Of a DNA stretch of 64,000 nt, positions 7,877 through 49,889 are shown one piece after another. This DNA comes from Kingdonia uniflora (lineage: Eukaryota > Streptophyta > Magnoliopsida > Ranunculales > Circaeasteraceae): assembly GCA_014058105.1 (NCBI GenBank), contig JACGCM010001948.1:2294001-2358000 (forward strand). Reading direction: 5' to 3'. The notes under the pieces were generated by a model. The model was not told where the DNA came from, did not search any database, and saw only the letters and a list, made by a program, of their open reading frames with translations. How positions within the stretch are numbered: the stretch's first letter is position 1; each line of letters opens with the position of its first letter. Position numbers and translations under genes: made by a program.

Positions 7877-8242
7877 GGTTCGATTCTACTTAAAAATGAA
7901 TTCACATTTTATAGAATATAGAAATGACTTCTAAATATATATAAAAAATTATTGGGTGTGCAATTGTAATTTGATAAAGGTTGATACAGAAAATGATAAA
8001 TAAAATATTAGTAGTTCTAATTTGTACGAGAAGCAGTTGTATTTGTACAAGAGTACACTTAATCAAACAAGTCTAGGAAGTGTTTTCACACTACACTTTG
8101 GTTTTTCCTAAAACATTTTTTTGCTGTAAATTAAAACTCTCCACCCTTCTTCATTCCCACTCTCTAGTTTGATCTCCCTCATCATTATTGGATCTAAACT
8201 TGTATGCATTATCTCTTAGGGAGAGGATTCCTCTTGCTACAC

Positions 8243-8450
8243 TCTGTCTTAACCACACACTCACTCTCTCTTGCCAACTCACTCACTCTCTTTTTGCCTA
8301 TGTGGCATCTCACTCACTCACTCCACTGACTCACTCACTCCACTCAATCACTCTCTCTATAATCCTTTCTCACTCCAAAATATATATTTCACTCTCTCTC
8401 TCCCGATTTCCCTCCACTCAATCACTCAGTCTCTCACTCCAAAATTCAAA
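8243..8450. repeat. Left subterminal CACTCACTC low-complexity tract
   Basis: A tract of CACT and CTCT repeats directly inside the left end of the MULE. It is the mirror image of the GAGTGAGTGAG tract inside the right end (20225-20345). The two apparent ORFs here are by-products of the repeat. Confidence 0.75.
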
Positions 8451-8742
8451 TTCTCATTAAAATTTTACTATTTCTCTCTCTCTACCTTCGATTAACGTAC
8501 GATTCTTTCTCAGTTTATCTCATTGTTGGGAAACTGTATTTTGGGAACGTGATGTTGGAATTGTACTACAAAGGTAATTTGTGCAAGGGTATTGATTTTG
8601 CTTGATTTAACAGGTTAGTGGACAGCAGCTCAACATCTACTAACATCAACTCCCAAACCCAACATCTACCAACAGGTGAGTGGTGTGCAAAAATTTTCTC
8701 TGTAGATTTAAAAATTGTTGTACACTACGTAATTGACATGTT

Positions 8743-8985
8743 ATTGTCGGAATTTGGCCATGCGACAATTTAGGAGTGGCATACAACACAGCAATCGATA
8801 AATTTACATAGTTTAATTGTCGAAATTGAATAAGTCAACAATAATTAATGACTAAATTGTCGCAAACCCAATGCATCGACAAAATTATTTTCGAATACAT
8901 TAGAAATCAACAAAATATTTTCGAAAACCCCAAAAATTGACAAAAAATTGTCGATTTATAGGGTTGTCGACAATATAACTCAGTG
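8743..8985. repeat. TTGTCGA palindrome cluster A
   Basis: Five exact TTGTCGA/TCGACAA heptamers by hand count, including one full TTGTCGACAA palindrome at 8963. Many one-base variants (TCAACAA, TTGTCGC) are present. The cluster lies in the 5' non-coding region of the transposase gene. Confidence 0.75.
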
Positions 8986-9581
8986 AAACTTGTTTATGTT
9001 ATAGATATGGGGTTTATTCAATGGGTGTGCAATTTATTTCATAAATGTTTTGGCGGGGAACATGATGGCTACGATAATGAAGTAATTCCCCTCGTCTCCC
9101 CCCTAATGAAGAGGTTGATGAACTATTTTGGTCCCAAGTAGTATTACGTATGGAAGCATTGGAAGCTGCAGAACAAGAAATGCAAGCACACATAGATTTG
9201 TAGAAGAGCTAGAAACTTGTCGGAAGTCATCTTTCGAAGAATCTGATTGAAGGGAATATGTTTGGGATTGGGGACCTGTAGACTGTACTTAGTGATGTTG
9301 GGGTAACATGTTACTGTAGTGTATGTTTTTAAACCATCTAATGACATACATGATGTACAACTGTGACCCATAAATTCTTATGTAATTAAAGTTTTTCTTA
9401 TGAAAAGCGGTGCTTTTTTGTTTTGCATTTGTGGTTACTTGTCTGTCACTTTTGATTCTATATGTTCGTCTGACTGTATGGATGTATTTGATTAATGGGA
9501 TTGTATCCAATAATTCATCATATATGACAGAATAATAATATAAAAGATTTTGTTGAACAAGAGTGGTCAAAGATAATCTGA

Positions 9582-12192
9582 GATGAATCACCACCAAGGG
9601 CTGCCAACGAACATACGTCGGGTGTGTGTTCCGGAACACCTGATTGTACCATTGATTCTTTGTTTGTGGATACGCCATATGAAGGGCAAACTTTTAATAC
9701 AGCGGATGACGCAAGTTCCTTTTATGAACATTATGGAAGGAAGGAAGGGTTCTCCATAAAGAAGTGCAACTATAACATACGACCAAGATCCGAGGAGATA
9801 GGACGAGTAACATTTACTTGTTTGAGCAACGGTTTGTCAAAGAAAAACAAAACTTCTTATACAAGTGAACAAGATGGGAAGAAGCGATCTTCTTACCAAT
9901 GTGGGTGTAAGACTACTTTGAACATTAGTTTCTCAAATGTGCATAACCACAAGCTTGTGTCACCTCGCAACCACCATCGTATGAAGATTAATCATTTCTT
10001 TTTTAAAGATGCAAAAAACCTTACTGAGACTTTTGAGCTACACAACATCTCAGTAAGCAAGGTGTCTGCTTTATTCCCAGACAAGAGCTTTAACAAACGT
10101 GATTGCTACAACCACAAAGCCAAGGTTAACAAGGAACGTCTATCGAGTGGTGATGCGAAGGCTGTATTGGATTGGTTCAAGAAAAAGCAACTCGAATATC
10201 CTATGTTCTACTTTGAAATTCAACTCGATGATGATGACAGAACACTTTCTTTTTTTTGAATAGATTGTCGATCCCGAATGGCGTATGAGGCTTTTGGGGA
10301 TGTGGTGACATTTGACACCACGTATAGGACAAACGTTTATAAGATGTCATTTGCTCCATTCGCGAGAATAAACAACCACTACCAAATAATCTAACTCAGA
10401 TGTATTTTGTTGAGGAATGAGCAAAAGACCACCTTTACTTGGTTATTCCATACATGGCTAAAGGCGATGAGCAATAAACACCCGACGACTATTATCACTG
10501 ACCAAGACGTTGTAATGGGTGTCTCCATCCTTAATGTTAATCTCAGTGTTATTATTACAGAAATTGTCGGGTAAATGTGTTATTATCCCTGTGTCGACAA
10601 TTATTGTTGAAATCCACAAAGTTGACAATTTATATTGTCGAAAATCATGAACTCAACAATTTATTTTGGCAAAAATCATGAAGTTGACAATTTATTTTGT
10701 CGAAAATCAGCAAGTCGACAATTTAATTGTCGAAAGCCACCAAGTCGACAATTGATACTGTCGAAAGTCATGAAGTAGACAATTATAGCTGAAATAATGC
10801 CAATTAATTGTGAAATCGACAATAATGTCAATTAATTGTGTACTGATTATGCAAAATCGACAATCTATGTTTTATAATATCTGTATTTTCTCGCAGGTGT
10901 TCCCGAATACCAAACATCGGCTCTTCTTATGGCACATCATACACAAGTTCCCTAAGAAAATTGGTCATATTTATTGAGATCCATCTGCATTCAAAACTGA
11001 TATAGATTCAATTATCCACAACACATATGATCCTGCAGAGTTCGATAGAAGGTGGAATGAGATTATGAAAAAACATAATTTTGATGACAACAATTGGATG
11101 CAAGGAATATTTAATATAAGAGAATGATAGATACCTTTGTGGAATAGAGGTACTTTCTATGCTGGCATAAGTACCACTGGCCGAAGTGGGTCAACAAACA
11201 ATTTCTTCAATGGTTGGCTGCTTCCTTCAACTGGTCTGTACAGTTTCGTGATGAAATATGCGACAACTTTATTAGACGCATTTGAAAGAGAGGAGGAAGA
11301 GGACTTTCAATCCCAACATAGATATCGGCAAGTCAGACCTCATCAGACTCTACTAAAACATGCAATAAAGATTTATACAAGGCAAATATTCTATAAAGTT
11401 GAAGACCAATTCAATCAAACTGTTTGTTTTGTAATAATAGAAAAGAGCATAGACGGCAATGTTCAAGAAATACTTGTGAAGTCACATAACAGACCGCCTG
11501 AAATTTTTGAGCTGAAGATAGACTTGGCCAGCCTGACAGGCCATTGTGAATGTAAGTTGTTCGAGTATGTAGGTCTGCCATGTCGTCACCTCTTCAAGGT
11601 TTTCTCCAAATATGATGTTCTCCAAATTTTAAATGCATTCATTCTACCAAGGTGGAAGATTGGTGCAAACAAATATTCTCGATCATACGACGAGAGTCTC
11701 TTAGATAGAGTGAATTTGAGAAAACCTTTATGTCATAGCCACCTCTCACTTCGCACAGTAAACCTTTTTGAGAGGGCATCAACGAATAATGCAAGCTTCA
11801 AATATGCAATTTCAAGGCTAGAAGAGCTTGACTTACACCTAAATATGTACGATGCATCTCTCACTCGACTCTCAGGTTCAGATCTTTTAATATCAACTCC
11901 ATTAATTGAGACAGTGATGTCTTCAGCTCCTATTTTGGATCCTCTTGTGGTACAAACCAAAGGTTGTGCAAAAGATGATCACAAGAAATATGGCCGATGG
12001 AAGGAAGGAATGGAGATAACTGTAGAAAAGAAGAAAAAGACATGAAAAGGGTGCGGAGTCTTTGGCAACCACGAGAAACGAACTTGCCCACAATTGAAAT
12101 TATTGTTTCAAAAAGTAGAAGCTGGTGAATACCCTAATACGAGAAATAAGCACTTCCCAACTTGTACGATGACATATGTTAAATATTTCTAA
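9582..12192 (+). pseudogene. FAR1/MURA-type MULE transposase (nonsense-riddled)
   Basis: A cut-and-paste transposase of the Mutator superfamily in its FAR1-like form. Domains in order: a FAR1-type DNA-binding zinc region (FYEHYGRKEGFSIKK, about 9700-9950), an MULE DDE catalytic region (RSRMAYEAFGDVVTFDTTYR, 10275-10330, and TIITDQDV, about 10489), the FPNTKHRLFLWHI motif after an intron (acceptor TCGCAG, about 10897), a SWIM zinc finger (CECKLFEYVGLPCRHLFKVF, 11549-11608), and a terminal zinc knuckle (GVFGNHEKRTCP, about 12054). In-frame stops sit at 10257 (TGA, expected Trp), 10392, 10976, 11126 (TGA, expected Trp), 11129 and 12043. The intron at roughly 10540-10896 holds repeat cluster B. 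The true start is unclear: the frame is open from 9582 but has no ATG there, and a coding-like stretch at 9090-9200 could be an upstream exon. Ordinary length for the family; inactive as it stands. Confidence 0.85.
10563..10866. repeat. TTGTCGA palindrome cluster B (transposase intron)
   Basis: Eight exact heptamers plus variants. A unit of about 45 bp is discernible: TCGACAATTT, a short AT stretch, TTGTCGAAAATCATGAA. The cluster is confined to the intron between the DDE block and the FPNT block of the transposase. Confidence 0.8.
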
Positions 12193-12483
12193 TTTATTTG
12201 CCTCGTTTTATACGTAGGAGCTGGTACAAATGATGGAAGAAATGTACAATTAGACGACCATGGTGTAGGGAGTTGCTGAACAACTTTATATGCTTGCATG
12301 TCCGTCTACAGGAACTTCCCTTATTGTTGTACTTAAGTTTGCATTTTTAGCGATATTAAGTACATTAAAGTAAGATGGAGGGAGCCTGAGTTGAACACTA
12401 CACTGATATTGATACAATTTTAAATGCCACTGCAACATTGTACTGATATTGATACAGTTTTAAACACCCCATCCCTAGTATAA

Positions 12484-12843
12484 ATGTCAATTATGTTGCT
12501 TGAGGAGGTTCCTATTGTTTCTTGTATTTTTGGTAAGATGGCTAAAACTAGGTATCAAACTCGTCAGGATGCATTTCTCCGTCGTGTGCATGAGAAGTAT
12601 AAGGAGTTGGTAGAGCGATACTTTGGTTTGAATAGTATCCACAATCCGACATTGTCGCCGTTTGAGGTGTACTATCTGGATTTGAGCAAGGAGGAAGCGT
12701 AGGTGTATAGGGAAGAGTATCTCTACCATTGTCAGCTACAGTTCGTGATTCTGAATCCGCGTGAGCGTGTGGCTAGTCTCATCAACCAGGCCAAGGCGAT
12801 GGTGAGGGAAGAAGATGCGCTTGCCGCGATGAACCACGCATAA
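12484..12843 (+). pseudogene. Small unknown MULE-borne ORF with one nonsense codon
   Basis: An open frame of 119 codons from ATG at 12484 (a second ATG at 12538) to TAA at 12841, interrupted once by TAG at 12700, where CAG (Gln) would restore it. The translated segment is charged and helical in character (RRVHEKYKELVERYFGL, then NPRERVASLINQAKAMVREE) and looks coding on both sides of the stop. I do not recognise the family. It sits between the transposase 3' end and repeat cluster C, on the transposase strand. It may be a small accessory protein of the element or a captured host exon. Confidence 0.45.
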
Positions 12844-12977
12844 TGTTTGCCCTGGTGACCGTTTCAGTTGTAACTAGTATGTTGTTTTTGTCTCTTTGTC
12901 ATCTGGTTATTGTGGAATAAATTGTTATTTTCGTAGACTCTCCATCTGGCTTTTTATGTTGTTCCAGTGCCTACACA

Positions 12978-13330
12978 TATTGTCGAATTGGGCGACTATT
13001 TGTTGTCGATAATATAATTGTCGACAATAATAATTGTTGATAATTTCGTATATTCGACAATTAATTGTCGACTTCACCTTGACATCGACAATTAATTGTC
13101 GATTTCACCTTGAACTCGACAATCGTATATTCGACAATTAATTGTCGACTTCACCTTGATATCGACAATTAATCGTCAATTTCACCTTGAACTCGACAAT
13201 TAAAACTAGCGACCATTTATTCTCGATTGCACCTTCAACTCGACAATTTATTGTCGATTGAACCTCCAACTCAATAATTACAACTGTCCACTGCACCATG
13301 AACTCGACAATGAGACCCCTCGACAATTAC
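12978..13330. repeat. TTGTCGA palindrome cluster C (31-bp units)
   Basis: The densest block: 17 exact heptamers by hand count. At 13050-13200 it is organised as units of about 31 bp, made of the 18-bp palindrome TCGACAATTAATTGTCGA followed by the spacer CTTCACCTTGA. The spacer survives in at least five copies. It lies between the convergent 3' ends of the transposase/small-ORF unit and the plant mobile domain gene. Confidence 0.85.
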
Positions 13331-14173
13331 AAATGTTTTGTGAAATATCTACTTTTGTCCAGAAGCTACAAAAAATACATAGATTTATGCGGCAACTATG
13401 CATCATCAAAAAACATACAAATATGTACAACATTCAAGAAAACAAATCGTTTGTACTGTAATCCCGTGGGTAAACGTTGTTGTCCTTCATCAACTTCATC
13501 CAAGCTTGGTTTGGCGTGTCAAAATAGGTCTTCACAGATGCCTTCATAAAATCATCTGGAATCTCCAATTGTACATGCGCCCACCATAGTGTAGAAACCG
13601 GAAGAATATGTGATAGGTACTTGGTCTTTAATTTTACAAAGTTTTCATCAAATGTCATCCCAACCCTCCAATACTTCGTACTATCAGCAAGAATGTTTTC
13701 AAACCTCTCTAATTTGGTAATCTTGTTGTTTGCTTTTGGCCAGAACGTGGGTAAAAATATTCAGGCCTCCTTGTTGCTGAAGAAGATCACCACATTCTCG
13801 TAATATGTTGCCAACAAATGACCCATATACAAATATACCACAAATACACCATTAAAGTTAAACGCCCGTAGCAAAGTATCATACCTTCTCTTTCCCAAAT
13901 TATTGTAAGTTATATCTAACGTTTGACTGAACAAGCTCTTCCAATAAGAAGGTTTCTTGGTTATTAAGGTACACAAGGACTGCTTCACATTCAAGAACTT
14001 CAATTGGCTCTGATATGCATATGATGCAACAACCTTAAACGTTGTGTTCCCATCCTTTTCAACGTCGCATATATCCAGTTGGAACCAATTAAATGGTTGA
14101 AACAAAGTTTGTCTTAGCTTAGTTTTATCATCAATCTTTTTCAACCTCGAATCAATCATCTCGTTATACTCAC

Positions 14174-14190
14174 CCCCCCCCCCCCCCCAC
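14174..14190. repeat. Poly(C) run
   Basis: A cytosine run of about 17 bases, broken once, followed by ACCCC. It lies just upstream of the C-terminal part of the PMD gene and is unusual in this AT-rich sequence. Confidence 0.8.
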
Positions 14191-14734
14191 CCCTTTTAAG
14201 ATTAAGTCATTCTGATATTCCCTTTTTGGACCCTCTTGAGCAATAGTTAAAAGTTCAGTAAATTGTCGACCTAATTCCTCCCATGTCGGGTCATCTGGGT
14301 CTTAAAAATCCCCTTCCCTTCCTTCAATAACATTTTTTTGTGTCAGGCGCCACACTCCCTGTATTGCAACCACAACCACAATAGTGTAGTTAGAACTTAC
14401 AATAAAGTAATTTAAAGCCAAACTACAAGCGTAGGATGACAAAGGTACACACCCACTCATTGTCATTTTGAAGATTGAATCTCATCTTTTCGGATATAGT
14501 CAGTTTGGTTTCCTGTATAGTATAGGGCCCATTTTGAGAGACATTATTAATATTTGGTGAAAAGCAAATTAGAAGTCACAGGACAACTTACAAGCCTGTT
14601 AGTTTCATGTATATATTTGGCGTACCACCTGTCATGAGTAGCCTTCACCTATTAAATATGGGTTTATACATATATAAATAGTTAAATACACAAAATTAGA
14701 GTACAAAAGACTTACTTAGAGGCTGGATAATAAA

Positions 14735-15025
14735 TTATTGACAAGATTTTTTATAAGTCGACAATAAATTGTCGAGAACCACCATGATCAACAATAAATT
14801 TGTTGATGACCCACCAGAATCGACAATAAAATTGTCGACATATATCTCTTTCGACAATTTCATAATTTGGTAGATTAAATCGATTATAGCAATTGTGATA
14901 TTGTCGATTATCACAATTATCGACAATAAATTATCGAAATTGAAAAAAGTCGACAATCTTTAGAGGGTGTGATAGCCAATGTACATTATTGTCGATAATT
15001 GTTGAAATCGACAATAATATATCGA
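14735..15025. repeat. TTGTCGA palindrome cluster D
   Basis: Ten exact heptamers in both orientations with variants such as TTGTTGA and ATCGATTA. The cluster falls in an apparent intron of the PMD gene. Confidence 0.8.
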
Positions 15026-16048
15026 AATCAAACAAGGGTCAAACAACTTAACAATACGCATGACAGACAATATTGGTAATAGTTAGTCTTTTATAATAAA
15101 AATTGAATATATTTAAAATGCATATATCAAAAAATCCACTGACATAGAAACTCTCCTCTAACAAAAAATGAACTGATTCAATGTACATTACTACAGAAGG
15201 TGTCGTCCAATTACACATGTCTAAATTAACTTACATTCTTATCTCTCTCACTTAACTTCCTCTATGTTTCTTCATATTTTGCGCTTAACTCGTAGTACTT
15301 CTGTATCCAGTCCTTGACTCATACGACGTTTGCCTCTGAGTGTGCAACCAAATTTAGTTGTACATAAAAAGAAGGATAATCATGAAACAAGTAATAAATG
15401 GCATATAGGTTTAGATGCACTATATTCTATATAATATTTTTTACTCACCGATAAGGGTTGTGGTTAATGATTTACAACTTCTATCAACTTCTCATTGATA
15501 GTAGCCAAGGTCTCATACTCCAGCACCTGTTATCAATCATAAATGAGTACTTTCCAAAAAAATGAATAACTCTCAATGAACTTGTTTCTCCTTGGCATTC
15601 ATAGTAGGAACCTTCATAGTACTTACTTTCTTTTCTAATTGTAGGTTCAAATCTGCAAGTGACATCTTCATTGAACAAACATCTTGTGACAATTTCTTAT
15701 TTGTTTCCTTCAGTGAATTGTACTCCAAGTTCTGATAACAAACATGTATGGCATCTATGAACAACACAGAAAAGAGGGAATGTTAAAACATGGTGAACTA
15801 AAGTAGGGGAAAAGAAACTACGAATACATTGTCATTCAACTTCTTTTTTATTTCGCTGAAGTCTTTCTCGCAAATCGAGACGAACACTTATTTTGCATGA
15901 AGGTCGGCTTGCAATATGTCATTTGACTCTTTCAATCTTTTACATTCATCTGTCTGTAATAGTAAGGGAAATAAATTAATTAAAGTCACTAACAAATTAA
16001 TTAGTAAGGCAAATAAATTAAAATAGATTTTCATTGAGTAAGCATAAA

Positions 16049-16268
16049 TTGTCGATTCTTGATATAATCAACAATTAGTTACCATATTTATTGTCGATTA
16101 TGCATATAATTGACAATAAAGTACTATAAATTGTCGAATCTCTTTATAATCGACAATAAAGTAATATAAATTGTCGATTATTTTTATAATCGACAATAAA
16201 TGACTATGAGGCCATTTGAACTTCGAATTCGACAATTAACATTGAATGTGACTACTAATTGTCGAGTA
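16049..16268. repeat. TTGTCGA palindrome cluster E
   Basis: Eight exact heptamers arranged as alternating ATTGTCGATTAT and ATAATCGACAATAAA pairs, 15-25 bp apart, each pair able to form a hairpin. In an intron between coiled-coil exons of the PMD gene. Confidence 0.8.
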
Positions 16269-17041
16269 TGTCAATATTAGTTAAAAGGTGAGGAGAGTGT
16301 GTGCCTACCTTCAACTTGATAGCCTTAAGCAATTCTGATTTTGCCCGGTCTTCTACCTCCTTCGCTGACTTCAACGAATGGACTTCATACTTCAAGTTGG
16401 AGTTCTCATCTTCTAAACAAGAGAGATCTTCATTTTGGCCCTCAACCTGTAAAAGAGTAGAAGCATATTAGAAGAAGGAACAAATTTACTACTCCAAGGG
16501 CCAAACACTATAATAACAATACTCGCATGTTCATGTTGTGAAACACCACCCCTATCGCCTAATATCCTCCCATCATCATTTTCATCAAGATTAACAACAG
16601 CTGGGCAAAGTTTGGTGAATGAAACTTTTTTAAACCATTTGAAGTATCCTTTAGCACCGACGGGGATTCTATCATGTACTTTTCTCCCCCTCATCTCGAT
16701 TAAAGAGTCCCTTCATTTCCCTCTAGAGAATTGATCTGCCCAATCATACTTTGATTTGCATGCGCATGGTTGAGTAGCAAAATGCAAACTGCTATTCTTG
16801 AGGCAAATGGGATTCATAGGCATAGATTACCTTCGGTTGAACTGGCGTTGTACTCGGTCAGGATAGTACGGCTCGATGTGTTCAGGACTACAAATGAAAT
16901 CGGTGAAACTAGCAACTTTTTTGAATACATGTCTGTCTGCTCTCTTCTCCAAGTACGGGTCCCAGACGACCTAGAACACGAAAGAAATATATATTAGTAA
17001 GTTAAATAAATTTATACAGATTTTTACTAAGTAAGATAAAA

Positions 17042-17310
17042 TTATTGTCGACGTATGGAGAATCGACAATTAGTTACCATATCAATTGTCGATTATCCAT
17101 ATAATCGATAATAAATGACCGTCGAATTGTCGATCCTTCAAATACTCGACAATAAATTTACATGAAATTGCCGACAGTTCATATAATCGACAATTAATGA
17201 ATATGAAATTGTCGAACATTCCAAATGTTCGACACTTTCTTACTATGAAATTGTCGACATTCCATATATTCAACAATTTTGAACTATAAATTTTCGACAA
17301 TTTCGAACTA
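17042..17310. repeat. TTGTCGA palindrome cluster F
   Basis: Nine exact heptamers in the intron between PMD exons 3 and 4, with recurring AATGAC/AATGAATATGAAATTGTCGA spacers. A further single copy (17390-17396) lies inside exon 3, just before its donor site. Confidence 0.8.
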
Positions 17311-18409
17311 TAAATGACTAGGAAATTAATACTATAACGGGAAATTAATCCAACAAAGTTAAAGGGAACTTACATCCTCAAGCTTATAATTGTCGAACGC
17401 TTCTCTAAAGATCTTTAAAGTTTTTTCACCAGTTCTTTCGCTTATCGTTCTAGTCCAAGACCACCTCGTACAGTACTCAGGAGCACGGGAATCATTGGGT
17501 TTTGGAATTTCAGGTAGCTTCGGGAAGTGCTCGAATATCCAGGACTGTAAAAATTAAAAAACCTTCAGTTACAACTTAAAGAAAGCAACAAACCAGCAAC
17601 GAAGCCAAAAAATGGATCCATACACTCACCTCTAGCAATGTAGTACAGCATGCAAGAGTTTTAGCATTCACTCTCGAAGAAGTGCCTGAGCTGTAATACA
17701 GGTGTGCCAAGGTCGCAGCTCCCCATGACCATGTAATCTTTGAGTTCTTGTTCTCAAAGAAATTAAGATACTTCGGTGACACATCAGTCCCTTTCTTGGT
17801 AGGGAAAAGAAAAGATCCTAAAACATACAACATGTATGCCTTGGTAACTGCTCGAGAAGACAATCTCGGGGATTCAGAGGAAGAAGATGCCTCTACTGCG
17901 TCGGGGTCGTGCACAATTCTTCCAAGCTTGTAGGCGAAGAAATCTACCATCTTTACCAGTGAACGAGATATCCCCGCCCCTCCAGCCTTCAGATTAAGGT
18001 AAACTTGATCGCTTTGGAAAAAATAGTCTCTAAAAACTTGTTTGACATTAGTTGCTCCTAACTTCCCCTGAACAACTGTCATATCACCGCTAACTCTCAA
18101 ACCAACTAATCTCCACACATCCTCCAATGTTATAGTAATCTCACCTCATTTGAAATGAAAACTGTTGGTCTCTAGATGTCAACGCTCGGCGAAAGCTGTA
18201 ATCAATGTTGCGTTGTAGTGTATGTATGAAATGGCTCTAATTCTGTCAAGCCCTTGTAGATTCACCAGTTTTTGGACCTTCTTAACCTCCCTACCAATGT
18301 CCCGAGTAGGACTGTGGTGAAATACTTGTAGGCAGCCGGGGTCCTGTAAATACAATATAATCATATTTTTCATTGTCTAAATAAAAGAAGGGAACTGTAA
18401 TGGCATAAT

Positions 18410-19020
18410 TTTGTAAGCTCAAGGTGGCTCGGAATTAGCTCTTACACCAATGTGTATGTGCAAAAACTAATGTGAAATAAGAAATGACACATGTGATTTA
18501 GCGTGGAAAACCTCTGAATAGGTAAAAAACCACGACCTCGGGTTGAGGGTTTTAGTAATAGTGATTTTTATTGCTTGAGGCTGATATCTTATTACAAGTG
18601 ATCTCTCAAACTAAAAATTATTGATCTTGCAAATAAGAAGTTTGGGTGTTTGAGAATCTATAAATTATAGTTTTTCTTGGTGATTTCTAGTATATTTTTC
18701 TGGCCATTGTCTATTCTGGAACTTTTTCTTTATATAGGCCTTGTCCGCAGTTCTTTATCATGCTAAAACACATTCTCCGAACAACGAGGTAAGTGGTGCT
18801 TGATTGAGTAACTGTTGAGTTCGTGAGAGGCATGTGTCTTTGAATTGTTCATGTTTTTCTATTGTGCTCGACCCACATTTCTTCATCAGTTTGTGGCGTA
18901 GGTGTCAATGCTGACTGTTTATGTCACATGTAGAATGCGTGAGTCTGATACGGAGGTAGTCTGGACTGAAAATAGATCGAATTGGGTTAGATCAAGAGAT
19001 AGGTCCTTACAGGAACATTG
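18410..19020. mobile_element. Possible LTR-like insertion in PMD intron 1
   Basis: PMD intron 1 (18344-19064) contains sequence reminiscent of plant LTRs: GCGTGGAAAACCTCTGAATAG, the phrase AAAACCACGACCTCGG, and a TATATA-bearing stretch near 18730. It contains no TTGTCGA copies, unlike the other non-coding parts of the element. Boundaries and family are unproven. Confidence 0.3.
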
Positions 19021-19619
19021 CTGGAATTGGGATCAAAACTAAAATAATTGGCTATTTTCAGTACCTGTCTAAGAGCTAGAGCTTTTGCTTTGTGGGTCTG
19101 GAAGTTCGCCAGCAAGCAGGTGTCCCTGGGGCCATATTCGTCCGCTTCTAATTCATTTGAGTCATTATTGTTGTCATCCTGGATACCTTATTTGCCCGTG
19201 GTTCTCGTATCCTGTTCTTGTTCTTCAACTGTAGGGTTTAGGAAAGCTTCATATTGCAGACTATCGCTCGCAGGAGCTGCTTCATTGTCATAGAAATAAT
19301 CTGTACTATAAACAGATGCTTGGGAATCACTGCCACTTGTAGAACGACTTTCAACATCCTGAACTTCTTCAGATGTCATTGCCACCTGAGGGACACTCCT
19401 ACTTGCTTTTGCCCTACTAGAATCAGTTTTGCTCCTTTTGGCAGGCACGCGAGGAGGTTTATTAAAATTTGGATGCGAGGGATCTTCTCGCTGTGAATTT
19501 AGCCTCTTCCGATGCGAGGCTGTTGGGCATATCTTCGCTAGGACTTTCTATTTTGGTGTCATTCTGCTTAAGAAACTCAAATTAAGCACTGACATAGGCA
19601 TTGAAACAGTTTAAGCACT

Positions 19620-19967
19620 AAATTGTCGCAATAAGAAATTGTTGACCACTCTAAAAATCGGCAATTAATCACTACAATATTGTCGATGAGAGATAATTTT
19701 GACAAATATTTTCAATAAATTGTTGATTTTAAGATAATCGACAATTAAAATTGTCGATTTATGAAATCTTCGACAATGTTTGATGCATAGTATTCCCTTA
19801 TTTGTCGACACATTGATTTTCGAGAAATTTTAAATTGTTAAACATCAAATATATCGACAATATTTTGTCGAGTTCAACAGAATCGACTATTTTTTTTGAA
19901 AAAAAAACAACATAATTTATGTCTATTAATCAGACTTTGACCCAACATAGAGTGGGTAATTTGTCGA
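19620..19967. repeat. TTGTCGA palindrome cluster G
   Basis: Seven exact heptamers to 19868 plus one at 19961, with many variants. The cluster lies upstream (5') of the PMD start codon, mirroring cluster A upstream of the transposase. Confidence 0.75.
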
Positions 19968-20224
19968 TGTTTTGCTTAAATCCTAAAATTTGGGGAAATT
20001 CCTCAAAAATTTGGTAAAAGAAACAAACAAAAAAAGACGTAACGGATTGTGCGGGAAAATTTAAACAAAAATAAGAAGACAAGATGATGGGAATAGGGAT
20101 CCTTTGAAAGGAATGCATTTGATTACCTGGTCAATGAGGGAGGTGTATGATGACAGTTCTCTGGTTTACAGCTCCCAAATTCGGTGTATGATGACAGTCT
20201 CCGAGGTTTAGAAATGATCACCGG

Positions 20225-20345
20225 GAGATAAAGAGTGAGAGAGAGATAGTGGCTGAGGGAGAGAGTGAATGTAGGCGAGTTGTCGGAGTGAGTGAGTGAG
20301 AATAAGAGAGTCTGACCGGTAGAGTGAGAGAGTGAGTGAGTGAGG
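20225..20345. repeat. Right subterminal GAGTGAGTGAG low-complexity tract
   Basis: GAGT and GAGA repeats just inside the right end of the MULE, the mirror image of the left tract. A T-rich stretch (TTTTGTTTTG, about 20350-20378) follows. Confidence 0.75.
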
Positions 20346-20456
20346 GTAGTAGTTTTTTTTGTTTTGTTTTGTTTTTTTCAAATTTGTCGTCTCCCAATGC
20401 CATTGTGTGGTCAAGAGAGTGTAGTGCAGTTTGGGTGTGTCAGGGGAATCCTCTCC

Positions 20457-32100: not shown

Positions 32101-34939
32101 ACAACTGCCACAGTGACAAGATGGACAAAACCATGTTCCCTCTGGCAAATACTACATTTACATTAAGAAAAAATTGTTTAATCCAACATTAAACTCATAT
32201 TCACGCTTGCTTGATCAAGCATCGGAATTGCAATAACTCATAATTACAGTTAATATATTCCACTAAAAAGAAGTTCAACTTGAACTGAATTAGTAAAAAA
32301 GGAAATCAAACCTCTAAACCAACGCAATGTAAGTGGTAAGTGGACGGGCATTGATCGCACAATATTAAATCGCCCCCATAATGACAGATGGAGCATTTGT
32401 AGTCACTCCTCTCGTAAACCTGTCGGGTTTTGATCCTCCAATGTGGCTTCCCTGCGAGGTTTTTAAGCATGTTTTTTTGGAGCATTTGCTCTTGGCACTC
32501 TAAGAGAGACCTCCCATCTTCCAAAAAAATATGAGCTGAAGGCCGGTTTGAAGTGCCACGCGCATGAGCTTCGAAGTTAGTAAGATTGAATACTATTTGG
32601 CAACAGTCGCACTGTATCCCATCTCTAGTTATCCTACCTTCAAGCATACAGAGAAGTTCTTTCTTAATCATGTACGTTACTTTTGTCCTCGGCAGCAACG
32701 CGTTATAGTCTATCAACCAAGCCAGAATTGTACGAGGAGTATGAGTTGCAGTACTCTGAACTGTACTCCCACGAGATCCAAGATCATATAAATTTACAAC
32801 AGGTTGAGGGCAATAATCAGATACAACACACTCATTATTAGAACAGGTCTTGGGTCTTGCTTTCTCTTTACAGAGTTTCAAACCCAAATTTTTCTTAAGA
32901 GTAGAGCGACCAATCTCAGCCTTTTTGTTTCGTGGTTCAAGGATTTCCGGAGTTTCCGGTGAAGTTCCATTCTGGGCACTGGATACGGATAACTCAACAG
33001 GTAAACTAACCATACTTTGTGGGTCATTTTGTGATTTTAGAGTCTGGGCACTTCCTACGCCTTTTGTCAAAAATATGCATACCTGACGAAGTGAGTAAAA
33101 CTTGCCCTGTCCTTTGGGAGGTGTATAACGCATTCTAACCATTTCTCTGTTTGTATCTTTCTTGGATTCAATTTTCCAGCCTATATAAGAAAGGTGCATC
33201 CTAGCTTTCAATACTGCATTTTGATAGTTGCCTTCTATTGAAGCAAGCAAGAAACTTCCCAAGGCTTCCGGGCAATTTTCAGCTCGGGGAAGTATGTTTT
33301 GGCTTGCGGGTAACCAAGTGTTTTCTATTTCTGACAACGAATGCTTACGCTTGAAATCCAAATTACCTCTGCTCTGTTTACCACCACTCATAGCACTTCC
33401 AAAAGCCACTTGGACTTCATCTTTGCATCTAAATTCACTACTTGTGGGACCAGAATGTGTAGAACTATCAATTTGCTCATGAAGAGTAAAATTTGGATCA
33501 CAAGAATCATCTGAACAAGTGCTGGTGGAGCAATCATCATCCTTCATTAGAATGTCACGCGATGGGCCTAAATGTCCAATGAAATCAATTTCACCTGAGG
33601 CACGGGGTTTCTTTCTTTTAACCCATGATCTAGCTAACTCTGCTTCGTATTCGGAGCTAACTTCTCCACTAGGTTCAAATGGTTCTAAGAACTCAGTTTC
33701 CTTTACCTGAATCTTCCTTTTTTCGCACGCCTTTTTAACCAAGGTGACTGTATTTTCAGAGTTTATAACATTTAGAGCATGTTCAGCATTTTTATTCAGA
33801 TTATCACAAATTGCTTCATGCACAACCTCGTCCCACATAGGTCTCACCCAAAAAGTCCACTCTTTAATGCTCTTCTGGAAAACCTCTTTTAGTCTCACGT
33901 CATACCAAAGTTGTCTCACCGAAACAACAACTGGTAACTCCTGCTCGTATTTTTCAATCAACTCGAGAAATAACCACAGACCACGAGGCTTCCATACCTG
34001 TTGCGCATCTTCCCAATCATGAGTGACTCTTACATCCTCAAACTTGATCACTTGTTGGTCCCCTAAGTCTGGAAATAACACCAACCTCTCATCTGAACCA
34101 TCCTCCTGGTCGAAAATAACTCCTTCCCACCAAGCATCACTAACAAGAGCATCTACACATAGACCATAAGTTAGGCCCCATCGACTGATTTCAAAAGAGG
34201 GAGGTTGTGGCCTTATTAAACCACGATAATAAACGTGGGCTCGATTACTGGGAATAACAGGGGGAACATCTACCAAATCCGTAAGGCTTGTGGATCCTTC
34301 ATCGGCGAGAATATGGTCATAATGAACCAAATACATAGAATCGTCGTGATATGGACTGATAGTAGCTGAATGCCATGATCCGTCAAACCCGTCTTCAGTG
34401 CTCCTAACCTGTCATCACAAATACGTTTTTAAACGAAATAGACTTAACTCTAAATTACGTCAATCTGCATCAGCTACTTTACATTAAGCTTAAAACAGAG
34501 GAAACAAATTAACAAGAGATTAAGGAAATTGATACTCGACCCTAAAGATAACCTTTTTATACCTAATCTTCCCATTGGGTATCCAAAACAACATGAAACT
34601 TGGCACAAACACAGTGACAAATACTGCCCGAGACGTTCTACCACGAAACAGTTAACTTTAAATTAGTTCAATCTAAATCATCTACTTTACATTAAGATTT
34701 TCAGCTTCTCATACATATATAACTGATTAAGGAAATCAATAACCGCCCCTAAAGATAACCTTTTAACGCCTAATCTCTCGATTGGGTATCCAAAAAACAA
34801 CGAAGCTCAGCCTAACTAAACATTGACAAAGGATAAGAACCATTACCTCCACTTTCTGACCCAACATTAAACCCCTTTTAGGGGTTTCTTCTCTCTTTGA
34901 TTTCGGCTTCTTAAAATCGTCTTTGAGCATAGACTCCAT
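23136..34939 (-). CDS. IDM1-like PHD-finger/GNAT histone acetyltransferase, gene B (complete, 9 exons)
   Basis: Exons: 34939-34847, 34408-32312, 32151-32022, 31933-31851, 30523-30300, 24039-23953, 23861-23762, 23541-23340, 23254-23136. All junctions are GT-AG and the frame stays open for 1044 codons. Domains by residue: a basic patch (KKPKSKREETPKR, about 10-25); two Agenet/Tudor-like modules (about 32-165); a TPL-binding-like domain beginning RTILAWLID (about 590-675); PHD finger 1 starting CSICHYGGDLILCDQC (703); an extended second PHD (HCGSCGRSN ... YCDQCEREYHLGC ... WFCSKKCEK, to about 801); and a GNAT fold (FYTVLLEREDELISVATVR, then FREQGMCRILMN, the acetyl-CoA loop, then the WTKSFGY region, to about 1000). 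Family knowledge: IDM1/ROS4 reads chromatin, acetylates histone H3 and opposes DNA methylation in the nucleus. The start is chosen because the homologous Met is conserved in gene A. If intron 8 is retained, a TAA at 23329-23331 ends the protein slightly earlier. Confidence 0.9.
24530..25195. repeat. MITE-family copy with tandem duplication of its right half (gene B intron 5)
   Basis: Sequence near 24530-24600 (GACACTCGTCTAGGCACTG, AGGAACACATAAAGATGTTT) matches the left half of the MITE at 25814-26213. Its right half (ATGTCGGAATGACCTAATCG ... GTGTCCACGGATCC, to about 24900) matches the other half. About 230 bp starting near 24740 is repeated head to tail from about 24975 to 25195, with point differences and small indels. 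Confidence 0.6.
25426..26431. mobile_element. Non-autonomous hAT element with 8-bp TSD
   Basis: The left end TAGGGTTATCAATGGATC (25426) and the right end GGATTTTGTCCAACCCTA (to 26431) are inverted relatives. The flanks are CTAATAAG (25418-25425) and CTAAAAAG (26432-26439), an 8-bp TSD with one mismatch, diagnostic of hAT. Subterminal TTCGGAT/ATCCGAA repeats are abundant. No transposase frame. A MITE is inserted inside it, leaving about 600 bp of hAT sequence. Confidence 0.75.
25814..26213. mobile_element. MITE with ~100-bp TIRs nested in the hAT element
   Basis: The left arm (GAGCAGATCCGTGG, then TAGACACTCAACTATTAGG, then CATAAAGATGTT) is repeated in inverse orientation at 26110-26213, with most bases matching over about 100 bp. 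The element is about 400 bp and has no coding capacity. The superfamily is not fixed because no clear TSD was seen. Confidence 0.65.
27817..28071 (+). mobile_element. tRNA-type SINE with 13-bp target duplication
   Basis: About 255 bp ending in a run of ten A (about 28059-28068), flanked by TGATTGGAAAACC (27804-27816) and TGACTGGAAAACC (28072-28084), a 13-bp TSD with one mismatch. The body starts ACCATTGAGCTCTTGGGTGG (a candidate A-box region) and carries GAGTTGAACCC, close to the pol III B box GGTTCGANNCC. The 3' half (AAAACCGGCTTATCTTCC before the poly(A)) is the LINE-recognised tail expected of plant SINEs. It lies in intron 5 of gene B, opposite to the gene's orientation. Confidence 0.75.
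28572..29139. mobile_element. 568-bp MITE with long TIRs
   Basis: GTGCCTCGATTTTAGGAGAG begins the left arm, and its inverse ends the element at 29139. Similarity continues through ATGGAGAGTTAGG and GGCTTGGCCTTG, for about 100 bp in all. A GA-dinucleotide run (28664-28681) follows the left arm. No protein is encoded. TSD not resolved. Intron 5 of gene B. Confidence 0.65.
34440..34845. repeat. Tandem duplication of ~205 bp in gene B intron 1
   Basis: Sequence around 34450-34600 (TCTACTTTACATTAAG-like, CCCTAAAGATAACC, CATTGGGTATCCAAAACAAC) recurs at 34660-34800 in the same order. Part of the unit (ATTGGGTATC near 7297) also survives in the same place in gene A, so the sequence predates the gene duplication. 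Confidence 0.65.
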
Positions 34940-43353: not shown

Positions 43354-43630
43354 CACTACAAAAAATGAGTATTAAGGACCAGATATTAGTGACGGAGTAA
43401 AATTTGTTTCTAATAATATAATATTTGGGACGATTTTGAATCAGTCTATAATATTTTTAGTTTATGAGACGAAAATAATTACTCTGTCCCTAATAATATA
43501 AGTTTAGGGACTGTTGGATTTTGCCGTCCCTAATTGTATAAGTTTAGGGACTCTTGGATTTGGGCGTCCTTAATTGTATAAGTTTAGAGACTACTGGACA
43601 TGGCCGTCCCTTATAGTTTAAGTTTAGGAG
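43354..43630. repeat. CACTA left subterminal repeats
   Basis: Units of about 55 bp containing GTCCCTAATTGTATAAGTTT and AGGGACTNTTGGAT recur at least three times (43490-43625). Confidence 0.75.
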
Positions 43631-43723
43631 TGGATAAAAATACTACGAAAACGAAAATGCCTAATTTCATGCACACAAGTTAACTCCCATTCCTTACAAT
43701 TCTTTTTCCCTAAATTCTCTGTG

Positions 43724-43810
43724 CACTACACCAAAATATCAACATTGTCACGGTCTCTTTCTAATTTTGCCACGAATATATGTCATGGTAACCTTTGCAC
43801 ATGACTTGTT
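43724..43810. other. Second CACTA-like terminus inside the element
   Basis: CACTACACCAAAATATCAAC at 43724 is a classical CACTA end, followed by TGTCACGG/CCACGAA and TTCGTGGCAAAT subterminal-like repeats. No matching opposite end was found, so it may be a truncated nested relative. Confidence 0.4.
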
Positions 43811-44559
43811 CGTGGCAAATTTCCTTGTTGTCAGTGGTTATTTTGACTTATCCTTTTGCCTCACAGTTTATTGTATTGTTGGAGTTAATAACTTCGAAGA
43901 TAACCAAAACTTGGACTCTCCGATCTCTACACACGCTATTTTTGATCTAAAACTTGGGAATTTTTAAATTGTTATTCTGAAGGTGGGGAGGGAGAGAGAG
44001 ATCACATCCTGGAATCAGGTTTCCCTTATTTTTTCTCTCATTATTTTTCATGTTTTAACCTTAGATTGTTCATGATTTTGGTGTGCTTGTTTTTAGATCT
44101 TATAGATTTGCTTAGATTTCTTGATTTTAGTTTTGGGCTTTGTGTGAAATATCAATTGATTTCGGTTTTTGATTGACCTAGATATCACAAATATTTTCAA
44201 TAATTTTGTTGTAATTGTGAAATAATGAAATTTGTTGCGATTATGAGTCACGATGATGGGATGAATCTTGGCATCTATCGTTTTTAGTTTATTTGGGGAT
44301 CTGTTTATGTTTTAAAACTTCTACATTTTGGTTTTATGGTATTGTGAAATAAATAAAAAACCCACACATTTACTTATTTGACTTTATGTTCTTAGTCCGA
44401 CTAGGAAATAATTCAATGATAAACTCAAATTCTCTCTAATTTATGTTTTTAATTGAACCCTTGTTTACGATATTTGACATGTTGGAAAGTCTTATTTTGT
44501 TTATCAAGACCATCCGTCACAAGGTCTTTTTCACGTTAGATACGGTGAGCAAATGGCAA

Positions 44560-44800
44560 TTTGACGTCAGCGTCTGGTGATTGGTAGTGTTCATTGTCAA
44601 AAATGCCCCATTCTTCCATTCATTTCTCCTCTCTCTCACTCGATCTCTCCACGGCCTCTTCTCCTTCTCTCTAGATCTCACTCCTCTCAAAATTACAAAC
44701 ATGACTTCTTCTGTGATTCTCTCTCTAATGGCGACTTGGAGTGTTTGATTTCACAAAGTTTTTAGGGTTTCAGCCAATCTCGTCTTTGGTAAGCTTTTCT
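44560..44800 (+). other. Likely captured 5'UTR/first exon region
   Basis: A CT-rich stretch (CTCCTCTCTCTCACTCGATC) followed by an ATG region and TTAGGGTTTCAGCC, then GT-rich sequence. It looks like a plant 5' UTR with its first intron boundary. It may belong to the gene from which the DHHC fragment came; parent not identified. Confidence 0.3.
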
Positions 44801-45565
44801 ACTCCAATCTCTTATTTTTGATTCATTGCTCTTATCTAGGGTTTATCATCTTCTTAATTTAGGGTTTTGATCGAAATATTTTCCTGTACCTGGGGTTCTA
44901 AAATTGGTCTAAAATAGCTGTTGTTAATTGATGAATCATGTTAGTACAGTTTGTAGGAATCATGTTAGAGTGTCTGCTTGAGAATTGGTAGTTAGAAATG
45001 CCATTGTTACTGTTTCAGAACTGTGTCTCCATACTTGTGATTTAAGTTAAAATAAAATTGGCCTCGATTGCCATTGTTAGACCACTTTGTTTGTGCGTTT
45101 ATATATCAGATTCAGGTCAAAATGAAATGTGGCCAACATTGTAATTATTAGGGTAGCTTACGGATAGTGAGAAATTATCAAAGTAAATGACCTCACAGGT
45201 GGCGTCGAAATCTCCTAGCATGTCACTTCTGTTTTTGCAAAAGTTTGAAAAATCAGTGAGTTTCCTTCTGTATGATTTTGGAGGATGAAATACTTATAAG
45301 ATGTTGGAGGAAACCAAATCTAGACGTTATCAGACCGACATCAAGAGGTCTTTCCTAAATTAGTATAAACAGATGCATATAAATGGGATTTGCAATTGAA
45401 GACTAAATCCTTTTCTACATTTTGCCTAAACAGATGTACCTTTGCAATTGAAAATATTTAACAAACTTATTGTGGATTTTTATATTTTCTTTGTTCAATA
45501 TATCGTCTACCTCTTCACAAAATGATTGCTACCCCATGGAAACAAATGACTCTCAGTTAGAATGT

Positions 45566-45738
45566 TGAACAGGGAACAAACCGGTGGTTGTTAAAGTAGA
45601 GCCCGACAAGCCGGTGATTGTTAAAGTAGAGCTGGAAGATAACGTTTTTCCTGATATGGAAATTGATGAGAGTATTCCAGTTGATCTCCCAAATGTCCAT
45701 TTCTGCCCTTCCGTGCCTACTCTTAATCCATCTTTCTT
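45566..45738 (+). pseudogene. Captured exon of unknown gene inside CACTA
   Basis: An open frame reads NKPVVVKVEPDKPVIVKVEL, then EDNVFPDMEIDESIPVDLPN and VHFCPSVPTLNPSF, ending at a good TT|GTAAGT donor (about 45738). The KPV(V/I)VKVE phrase is an internal 30-bp duplication. Acidic and Pro-rich; I do not recognise the parent. Confidence 0.45.
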
Positions 45739-46227
45739 GTAAGTATTTTAACAACATATTCTAGCTTTTTTTGGAGCCTTCCACTTGGACCAAATAGTTT
45801 TTTCTTAAGAGATCATGTTTAGTGAAGACATGGTAAATAATCTAGCTTTTCTGAAGCTTTCAGCTTAGACCAAAGATTTCCTTCTAAAAGGATCACATCT
45901 TTTCTTGCTTTAAATAATGGTTATGCTTACACAGTTTGTTATTAGCCAAAATTGAGGATCTCCTAACCCCAGCCCCCTTGGATCCTTTTTCTTTCGTTAT
46001 TTGGAGATAGCCCTATATGTACCTTGTGCTGCAAAATACCCTAAAATATTTAATTAGTACTTAAAAGTGGTATAACGCGGCTTCTAATATGTTTAAAGTG
46101 ATGCTTGGTCTCCAAATGTCGAGCTTATCTTTTGTGCACTCAAGTCATTTCCTGGTCGATTTCACTAAATTTTTTGCAAGTGGAATACTTATGCCTCTAC
46201 AAATGATGCAGACTATGGGTTCTTCTC

Positions 46228-47175
46228 TTGCTTATCTCTGGTACAGATCCTGGAATTGTTCCTTGCAACCTTCACCCTCCAGAACCTGAAGATGATGGCT
46301 ATGCTTCTTGTTTATCTTCAGAATTGCCAGGAAATCAGGCTGGTCCTTCACGATTACCACCCATAAAAGATATCCTTGTTAATGGAATTATAGTGAAGGT
46401 TAAGTACTGTCACACGTGCATGCTTTATCGCCCACCACGGTGCTCTCATTGCTCTATCTGCAATAACTGTGTTGAGCGCTTCGATCATCACATTGGGAAG
46501 GTATGTCCTAATGTTTAATACAAACTTATTTGGGAATATGTCTTACATTTTAGGGTGACATCCCATGCATGTATGATGATATTACTTAACTTTTTATCCT
46601 GTCAATGGCTGCCAAGATATCTAATTGCAAAATGTCCCCGAGATATATTACTGTATCATCATGCAATGCACCTTTTTTTTCGTTGATGTCCCAGTTTTTT
46701 CAGGCCTCACTATCTTTAATGTCTCATATTGCAGAGAAATTACCGATTTTTTTTTATGTTCGTCTCATCCACAACCATGCTGTGTCTATATGTTTTTATC
46801 TTCTGCTGGGTAAACATCAGGAAAACAATGGTCACACATCACATAACTCTCTTGAAGGCTTTCGGAAAATCTCCCGTGTCAGGCATTCTCATATTATACA
46901 CGTTTATAACTACTTGGTTTGTTGGAGGTCTCACAGCCTTCCATATCTACTTGATTTGCACGAACGAGGTATTCTTCTTCTCTTCTTTTGTCATTTCCCC
47001 ACTTCAAAAATTGTTGTAGTAATTAAGTACTTTTGTTATTGTAGACAACGTATGAGAATTTCCGTTACAAATACAATAGAAAAGTGAACACATATAATCT
47101 TGGATTGGTTCGTAATGTGGCCGAAATCTTTATCTCTAAGCGGCCTAAATCTAAGAATAATTTCAGAGCAATCAC
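46228..47175 (+). pseudogene. Captured DHHC protein S-acyltransferase fragment (catalytic Cys deleted)
   Basis: Three exons with GT-AG junctions and continuous frame: 46228-46500 ([46 protein letters not shown]), 46735-46968 (NYRFFFMF, then two hydrophobic transmembrane stretches), and 47045-about 47175 (TYENFRYKYNRKVNTYNLG, SKNNFRA). This is a plant DHHC palmitoyltransferase (PAT) of the endomembrane type. The active site reads DHHIGK where the family has DHHCPWVGQCIGK, an apparent in-frame 21-bp loss that removes the catalytic cysteine. N-terminal membrane helices and the C-terminal tail are missing. It ends abruptly against the EFR3-like fragment. Confidence 0.8.
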
Positions 47176-47184
47176 GAACAGAAT

Positions 47185-48800: not shown

Positions 48801-48897
48801 AACAAACATGTGATCTTCTTTGGTGAGTCACTTTTCCCATAACCATCTTCATTATTAACAATCTAAACCTATTTTGTTGCGGCTCCGTTCAGATAGT

Positions 48898-49640
48898 AAA
48901 GTTTACAAAATTCCTATAAGCTTTTTGAACTGTTCTTCTTTCACATTAATAAGGTACAACGCAAAACTTAGGGACTTTATATTTGTCTTTATTCATATAG
49001 GAGATATGGCATGCTTCAGACTGGGGACTTCATTTATATTCTCAAGGTGAATATAATTTATTTGACTTCCTTAGAAGTATTCATGCTCTTTAATATTGTT
49101 TTCAATCTTCTATTGTTAGTCATGGATCACACATTCAATTCTGGGATGCTCTGTTCCAATAATTTAGGTCCCCAATCAGTGTTACCAACAGTTTCAGTTA
49201 TATAAAATATTATTTCACAATGAAGAAGTAAAATAAGATATCAATTACTTCTTAAAAAACAAAAAATAATTTATCCATTCGCTATTTTCAGTGATTAGGT
49301 TGTGGCAGCATTAACATAACACTTGTCTATTTGCATTGCAACAACTCATATAAAGTCCACACGTAGTTTTAACAGTACTAAAAGGCTATGGCATGTTACT
49401 AGTTTTTTTGCTCTGCCATATTTTTGTAGTTTGAGATTGTACAACTAATTTTCACTTGCTCCATCACTGGTCTCCATAGGCTTAAATAGTTAAGTTTACA
49501 AATTTTCCATAGGCTTTTTGAACTGTTCTTCTTTTACATTAATAAAGTACAATGCAAAACTTAATGACTTTATATTTGTCTTTATTCATATAGGAGATAT
49601 GGCATACTTCGGACTGGGACTTCATTTATATTTTCAAGGT
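48898..49640. repeat. Direct repeat of ~150 bp inside CACTA
   Basis: 48898-49048 and 49493-49640 are near copies (CTTTTTGAACTGTTCTTCTT, TATTTGTCTTTATTCATATA, GGAGATATGGCAT shared). Between and around them is AT-rich filler without recognisable coding sequence. Confidence 0.75.
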
Positions 49641-49889
49641 GACTTAGGATGTTGGACTTGTAACTCTTCATGTAAAAATAATAATTTCATTGTTATTGTT
49701 TTCTTTTCAATTATTTTTGATATGTCCTTTAGTTTCTTTTGTATATCAAAAAACACATTTGTAATCACTTTACCTTCTTTTAAATTAACTTGTGGTTGAT
49801 GAATGATTTGTATTATTTAACAGGGTGTAATTTAAATTGCAAAAATACTATATTTAGCATTACTTTCTTTTAGAGAAACAAATCTGTTT

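Follow-up and report, generated by a model that had tools for sequence, protein, structure and literature searches.

Phased arrays of one heptamer in the non-coding spaces of a Kingdonia uniflora Mutator-like element, candidate docking sites for a symmetric DNA-binding protein

Introduction

Why should a transposable element fill its introns, its intergenic space and the regions upstream of its genes with dozens of copies of a single heptamer? This question is raised by a Mutator-like element (MULE) that occupies positions 8219 to 20456 of a 64,000-nucleotide stretch of the Kingdonia uniflora genome (here called the window). The VANDAL elements of Arabidopsis (VANDAL21 with its protein VANC21, VANDAL6 with VANC6) are likewise MULEs in which a short motif lies densely in introns, intergenic regions and upstream regions. 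According to PMC5735166, the non-coding density of the motif directs VANC21 binding to VANDAL21, and VANC21 expression removes methylation from whole copies. Sequence-specific anti-silencing through motif arrays was found described only for these VANDALs in the open-access literature searched, which yielded no description of arrays of TTGTCGA, the Kingdonia heptamer.

Results

A Mutator-like element with three interrupted genes

The element is bounded by the 12-base sequence GGAGAGGATTCC, present at the left terminus (8220..8231, plus strand) and, inverted, at the right terminus (20445..20456, minus strand); the ends of its relatives read GGGGAAGGATTT. A target-site duplication was sought for the window copy and none was found. 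The transposase gene lies on the plus strand and comprises an exon with a FAR1 DNA-binding domain (9582..10256; Pfam PF03101, E = 2.4e-8), an exon with the MULE domain and an in-frame stop inside it (10272..10535; PF10551, E = 9.8e-25, obtained with typed letters joined over the intron and X at stops), a GT..AG intron (10536..10896) and a C-terminal exon with a SWIM finger (10897..12042; PF04434, E = 6.2e-5). Together, the FAR1, MULE and SWIM domains, along with 9/9 target duplications in two relatives (L013 and L021, below), place the element in the Mutator superfamily. A small open reading frame (ORF) of 101 codons with one internal TAG follows on the same strand (12538..12843); in a protein search with this ORF, no candidate shared three words.

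The third gene, on the minus strand, encodes a plant mobile domain (PMD) protein, so that PMD and MULE transposase sit in one element as separate, convergent genes. It includes an N-terminal exon (19065..19565; 55% identity in a tblastn search with protein P0001), PMD domain exons with in-frame stops (16716..18376; PF10536, E = 2.3e-51, searched as typed joined letters with X at stops), coiled-coil exons, and exons for a C-terminal domain that has no Pfam family and contains an in-frame stop (13434..14361). The last are homologous to the Kingdonia proteins P0004, P0065, P0111 and P0112. Because all three genes carry in-frame stops, the window copy is probably dead. A PMD query returned 110 protein matches; the 104 from Kingdonia uniflora vary widely in identity, and one of these lies in a gene model with a kinase domain.

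Heptamer sites are concentrated in seven non-coding blocks

An exact count gave 68 TTGTCGA/TCGACAA sites in the element (35 TTGTCGA and 33 TCGACAA), against an expectation of 1.5 from base composition, 1.8 from a first-order Markov model and 6.2 from a second-order model fitted to the element's own sequence. An earlier note on this DNA had counted about 65 by hand against one or two predicted, an observation that the exact count confirms. The motif is not equally dense in other DNA of this genome: the remaining 51.8 kb of the window hold 3 sites, and 40 kb of control DNA from eight arbitrary positions hold 10. Among 7-mers with at least six occurrences in the element, the heptamer ranked third for enrichment relative to the rest of the window, behind the overlapping ATTGTCG and a poly-C run.

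Seven non-coding blocks, the number given in the earlier note, contain 65 of the 68 sites. Block 1 (8743..8974) lies upstream of the transposase and has 5 exact sites, or 10 with one mismatch; block 2 (8 exact sites) lies within the transposase intron, and block 3 (12980..13326; 17 sites) between the two convergent genes. Introns of the PMD gene hold block 4 (14738..15014; 10 sites), block 5 (16049..16265; 8 sites) and block 6 (17045..17300; 9 sites), the last in an intron with GT..AG ends, and block 7 (19623..19967; 8 sites) lies upstream of that gene. Three sites are exonic, at 10265 in the transposase and at 14263 and 17390 in the PMD gene, where one had been reported before; we read them as codons of conserved residues. 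The heptamer had also been called palindromic. By itself it is no palindrome, and the inverted repeats come from pairs of heptamers.

Four known motifs were considered and rejected. FHY3/FAR1 reportedly bind CACGCGC, which has 0-2 occurrences in the element. The same holds for each of the VANC21 and VANC6 motifs and for the DOWN motif of MAIN/MAIL1, CATGCAGTTT (PMC9899485).

Alternating sites follow a spacing rule

Along the blocks, the heptamer alternates in orientation (35 plus, 33 minus), and the distances between neighbouring sites obey a rule that the earlier note had missed. For inward-facing pairs of exact sites within 7-45 bp, 15 of 19 lie 18-20 bp apart, start to start (mean 1.7 and largest value 7 in 2,000 random placements), and such pairs are present in all seven blocks. 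Outward-facing exact pairs fall at 11-13 or 21-23 bp in 12 of 19 cases (null mean, 3.4; largest, 11). With one mismatch allowed, in counts that take in overlapping shadows of palindromic sites, there were 9, 6 and 5 outward pairs at 11, 12 and 13 bp and 4, 8 and 2 at 21, 22 and 23 bp, with none at 14-20 bp. The 21-23 bp class is the 11-13 bp class plus one helical turn. Exact sites on the same strand gave 10 pairs at 30-32 bp, corresponding to a 31-bp unit. All pair counts are inflated by tandem duplication; the tandem arrays in the blocks differ in their units.

The sequence between the heptamers is far less constant. Spacer identity between blocks was 0.468, compared with 0.446 for shuffled spacers and 0.556 within blocks (39 units), although blocks 5 and 6, at 0.57, may be related. 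When five tandem arrays were cut by phase, identity was 0.877 in motif columns and 0.669 in other columns, a value to which block 1 contributes without feeding the motif columns and which rises to about 0.71 when block 1 is excluded. The higher identity of motif columns and the near-unrelated spacers between blocks indicate that the remaining sequence drifts around a preserved heptamer and geometry. One local satellite expansion, a competing origin named in the earlier note, is rejected on two grounds: the spacers of different blocks are dissimilar, and arrays are present at many places in the genome.

The blocks also show signs of decay. The CpG of the motif has undergone a C-to-T or G-to-A change in 18 of the 51 one-mismatch sites that they contain. 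The observed/expected CpG ratio reaches 1.79 within the blocks, as against 0.59 for the remainder of the element and 0.67 for the remainder of the window. From these changes and ratios, we infer that the window copy has probably been methylated in the past.

Related arrays recur across the genome

In the 1.0-Gb Kingdonia uniflora assembly, inward pairs with spacers of 0-10 bp numbered 5,912, against 17 for a reversed control. We sampled 20 stretches of 10 kb, representing 46 of the first 50 places in contig order. Choosing loci by such pairs favours loci that have them, and motif-free copies would be missed; the selection did not act on the preference for 2 bp among spacers of 0-10 bp, nor on the outward distances. 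At least five heptamer sites were present in 15 of the 20 loci. The other five (L004, L005, L008, L014 and L020) have 2-4 sites each and resemble isolated pairs in other repeats.

In searches with eight queries, homologues of the transposase, of the small ORF or of PMD proteins were detected in eight of the 15 site-rich loci, in two of them (L006 and L009) through the small ORF alone; the other seven showed no homology to these queries. Transposase homology was detected in two of the 20 loci (L003 and L010), and tblastn identified small ORF homologues in L003, L009, L010 and L011. The motif, which might have been absent from other copies of the element, is present in them, though these copies were found through the motif. 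Its placement was examined in six loci (L003, L010, L011, L017, L018 and L019) with a mask of PMD-gene homology that required at least three matching proteins and left transposase exons outside. Only 7 of 147 sites fell within the mask, equivalent to 0.35 sites per kb versus 3.51 per kb elsewhere, and we take three of the seven (L003, positions 8569, 8610 and 8670) to lie in an intron.

Arrays were also found in L013, L015 and L016, with no protein homology in the 10 kb of each. Inward spacing in L006, L013, L015 and L016 was 19, 14 or 11-12 bp; the array at L015:4743-5310 has inward pairs at 14 bp, a 7-bp spacer, or IR7 in the terms used for auxin response factors (ARFs). Two gene-poor segments, L002:4332-5411 and L007:4617-5521, are alike by blastn, and in the L002 arrays, whose units measure about 52 bp, both TTGTCGA and TTGTCGG are present (TTGTCGAACCCGACAA). 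An intron of the window PMD gene contains a dispersed repeat (18396-19011; about 615 bp) that recurs in L005 (79%) and L017 (83%). Translated arrays sought in 134 proteins gave no clear signal. Among viral contigs there was one match, an IMG/VR contig, with no array seen in 1.2 kb of it.

A close copy and two gene-poor relatives

L010 is a close paralogue of the window element, with 74-81% identity in the transposase, 68% in the small ORF and 65-83% in segments of the C-terminal domain. It is cut short on the left, and the adjoining 3 kb have no heptamer site; its 10-kb stretch includes the transposase and, of the PMD gene, the C-terminal part but not the PMD core. Its arrays stand at four places that match those of the window, namely the transposase intron, the space between the genes and two introns of the PMD gene, and repeat units have been gained or lost relative to the window. 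Comparing the two copies, identity was higher in motif than in other columns at all four places (0.87 versus 0.73, 0.92 versus 0.87, 0.82 versus 0.67 and 0.83 versus 0.65). Estimates of dN/dS came to 0.82 in the small ORF, 0.36-0.55 across segments of the transposase and 0.23-0.41 in the C-terminal domain.

Two further elements, gene-poor and MULE-like, carry arrays; queries with the transposase, the small ORF and PMD proteins detected no homologue at either locus. One (L021, 3942-6646) has identical termini, GGGGAAGGATTTAGAGAC, 26 heptamer sites and a 9/9 target duplication, TACATATAT, which is weaker evidence owing to its TA-rich flanks; its longest stop-free frame is 158 amino acids, compared with a largest value of 121 in 50 shuffles. 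The other (L013, 6470-9021) has 11 sites and a 9/9 target duplication, AAAAAGTAA. No heptamer occurs within 200 bp of either end of these two elements or of the window element, the outermost sites lying 489-803 bp from the ends. This placement argues against their being terminal cleavage sites.

A distant family keeps the heptamer and changes the spacing

L003, which shows homology to both PMD and MULE transposase, is much further removed from the window element (identity of 44-66% in transposase segments, 40% in the small ORF and 35-53% in PMD-gene segments), and synonymous sites are saturated, with pS of at least 0.75 in seven of nine segments. Its arrays nevertheless occupy the same transposase intron, the intergenic space and introns of the PMD gene. 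The PMD intron with block 6 (16970-17374 in the window) corresponds to L003 8359-8710, and both contain an array; further PMD-gene introns with arrays match blocks 4 and 5 less exactly. In L003, L009, L011, L017, L018 and L019, 21 of 25 neighbouring inward pairs are 9 bp apart, a distance favoured by the locus selection (spacers of 0-10 bp), and 16 of 23 outward pairs are 41-45 bp apart (about 42), values that were not selected. Across all families, a period of about 10.25 bp was the best of seven tried for outward distances (R = 0.58, 65 pairs). Inward distances are dominated by two values and picked out no single period.

Between the window and L003, dN was 0.36-0.53 in six segments of the PMD gene, 0.22 and 0.31 in the transposase and 0.51 in the small ORF, with the FAR1 exon the lowest of the segments compared. 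Relative to the transposase, the small ORF is upstream in L003 (842-1123) and downstream in the window. An array stands directly upstream of the small ORF in L003, L009 and L011.

Discussion

Alternating, helically phased sites in non-coding DNA, found in elements with and without genes, suggest an array for a symmetric protein that acts in trans. Our preferred reading, which we hold tentatively and at a little below an even chance, is that the arrays are cis docking sites for a symmetric DNA-binding protein, likely encoded by the element itself, which keeps the element open or transcribed in the manner of VANC. A two-fold symmetric, sequence-specific protein would dock in trans on the seven blocks and on arrays across this MULE clade of the genome, recognizing TTGTCGA copies that alternate in orientation and stand at helically phased distances. 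By occupying promoters, introns and intergenic space, it would then do what VANC does for VANDALs and hold the element open or transcribed. We infer the binding itself, the dimer geometry, the anti-silencing role and the identity of the array-binding protein alike; an anti-silencing or activating role is proposed by analogy with the behaviour of VANC21 (PMC5735166).

The most likely docking protein would be element-encoded, with the product of the PMD gene (PMD, coiled coil and C-terminal domain) as the leading candidate. PMC7156037 treats PMD as a domain whose function is unknown. The product of the PMD gene comes first because AlphaFold predicts a confident long coiled coil in the PMD homologue P0113, alternating inverted sites being compatible with a dimer, and because the PMD gene diverges faster than the transposase, as VANC does. 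The product of the small ORF, named in the earlier note as another possible binding factor, comes from a sequence that diverges just as fast. The C-terminal domain of P0113 was predicted with low confidence, and the small ORF model (pLDDT 49) was uninformative. The same divergence also counts against the candidate: the heptamer has stayed constant although the PMD gene changes faster than the transposase, which could point instead to the FAR1 domain or to a host factor.

That second pointer leads to the most serious host rival, the ARFs, because TGTCGA fits the TGTCNN element that they bind. Sites collected by the MULE and read by ARFs for its transcription would resemble composite auxin response elements, bound by ARF dimers, in having the TGTC core in inverted pairs, and in maize, ARFs prefer sites that occur in clusters, with direct repeats phased at 10 bp (PMC6207667). 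The spacings listed for ARFs are IR7-8 and IR18, ER3/13/23, and DR4-5, DR14-16 and DR25 (PMC12041631; see also PMC10690724). The 31-bp unit sets same-strand sites at DR24-26, a range that includes the DR25 listed for class A (PMC12041631); for this match and the IR7-like pairs at L015 we keep the rival. However, the dominant window spacings are IR11-13 and ER6-8/16-18 rather than the inverted and everted spacings listed, and the blocks hold 71 TGTCGA against 3 TGTCGG, the preferred ARF site (PMC10690724). With core and direct-repeat spacing fitting but inward and outward spacing and the last base off the ARF preference, the match mostly fails, and we consider ARFs an unlikely answer. Reading by the transposase through its FAR1 domain, for autoregulation or transposition, strikes us as distinctly unlikely. 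The domain is present, and the lowest dN of its exon between window and L003 suits a constant heptamer, but the heptamer-free ends of three elements (nothing within 200 bp, outermost sites at 489-803 bp) do not suit terminal cleavage.

Other explanations dispense with an array-binding protein. The arrays could be by-products of tandem repetition, or silencing nucleators that give rise to small interfering RNAs (siRNAs): repeat units do expand and contract, and tandem repeats can be siRNA sources and targets of RNA-directed DNA methylation (PMC10398659). Such an origin seems quite improbable to us, given that motif and spacing persist even as the spacers of different blocks diverge, and that different families have the heptamer in common. 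We give still less credence, and indeed very little, to a role of the inverted pairs as intronic RNA hairpins. A 7-bp stem could form from each inward pair, but of the 11 units (among 50) in which both arms have changed, one shares a change that preserves the stem, and blocks 1, 3 and 7 lie outside introns.

Docking by a symmetric protein, our preferred reading, invites comparison with known systems. The VANDAL parallel, drawn in the earlier note, holds in part. Placement of the motif, gain and loss of repeat units between copies, and carriage by gene-poor elements have counterparts here; in Arabidopsis, the VANC6 motif is shared by AT9TSD1, an element termed unrelated to VANDAL. In contrast, VANC21 sites have one orientation (PMC5735166) whereas Kingdonia sites alternate, and VANC families changed their motif whereas Kingdonia relatives share the heptamer and change its spacing. 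The VANDALs carry a VANC gene where this element has a PMD gene, and no DUF1985 or DUF287 (VANC) domain was detected in 10 ORF pieces of the element, which cover part of its exons (Pfam, E up to 1).

Spm/En, a CACTA element, has repeated short binding sites for TnpA in subterminal positions and CACTA termini. The Kingdonia arrays instead fill the interior and avoid the ends, and the termini are GGAGAGGATTCC. TnpA is an element-encoded protein linked to activation and demethylation (PMC10398659), in which it resembles the docking protein proposed here. PMD-C-capturing MULEs of grasses and Amborella also combine MULE transposase and PMD in one element; as described in PMC5418596, PMD-C is fused to the transposase there, whereas in Kingdonia it forms a separate convergent gene and is accompanied by motif arrays. 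In that paper, Ikeda et al. raised the speculation that MULEs use captured PMD against silencing.

A more far-reaching proposal, which we regard as rather unlikely though less so than any of the rivals above, is that of an anti-silencing system that evolved independently and acts across the genome. This MULE clade would have captured a host silencing-type PMD gene as its array reader, and family specificity would reside in geometry rather than motif: the same heptamer, with inward distances of 19 or 9 bp and outward distances of 12, 22 or 42 bp, in helical-turn steps. If true, this would be a second lineage, differing in both gene and array design, and would show that transposable elements evolve motif-array anti-silencing repeatedly; the PMD domain would gain a testable role. 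The spacing difference between families would offer a handle on how a transposable element could keep its activator specific.

The window contains other sequences of interest. A CACTA-like sequence spans roughly 43354-50500 (right end provisional), with inverted GTCCCT/AGGGAC-type arrays near 43486-43628 and 49867-50304. On the minus strand, a 701-amino-acid open frame (32309-34411) has Agenet, DUF7028, Tify-binding (TDBD) and PHD-type matches, and a second Agenet frame lies at 2-730, also on the minus strand.
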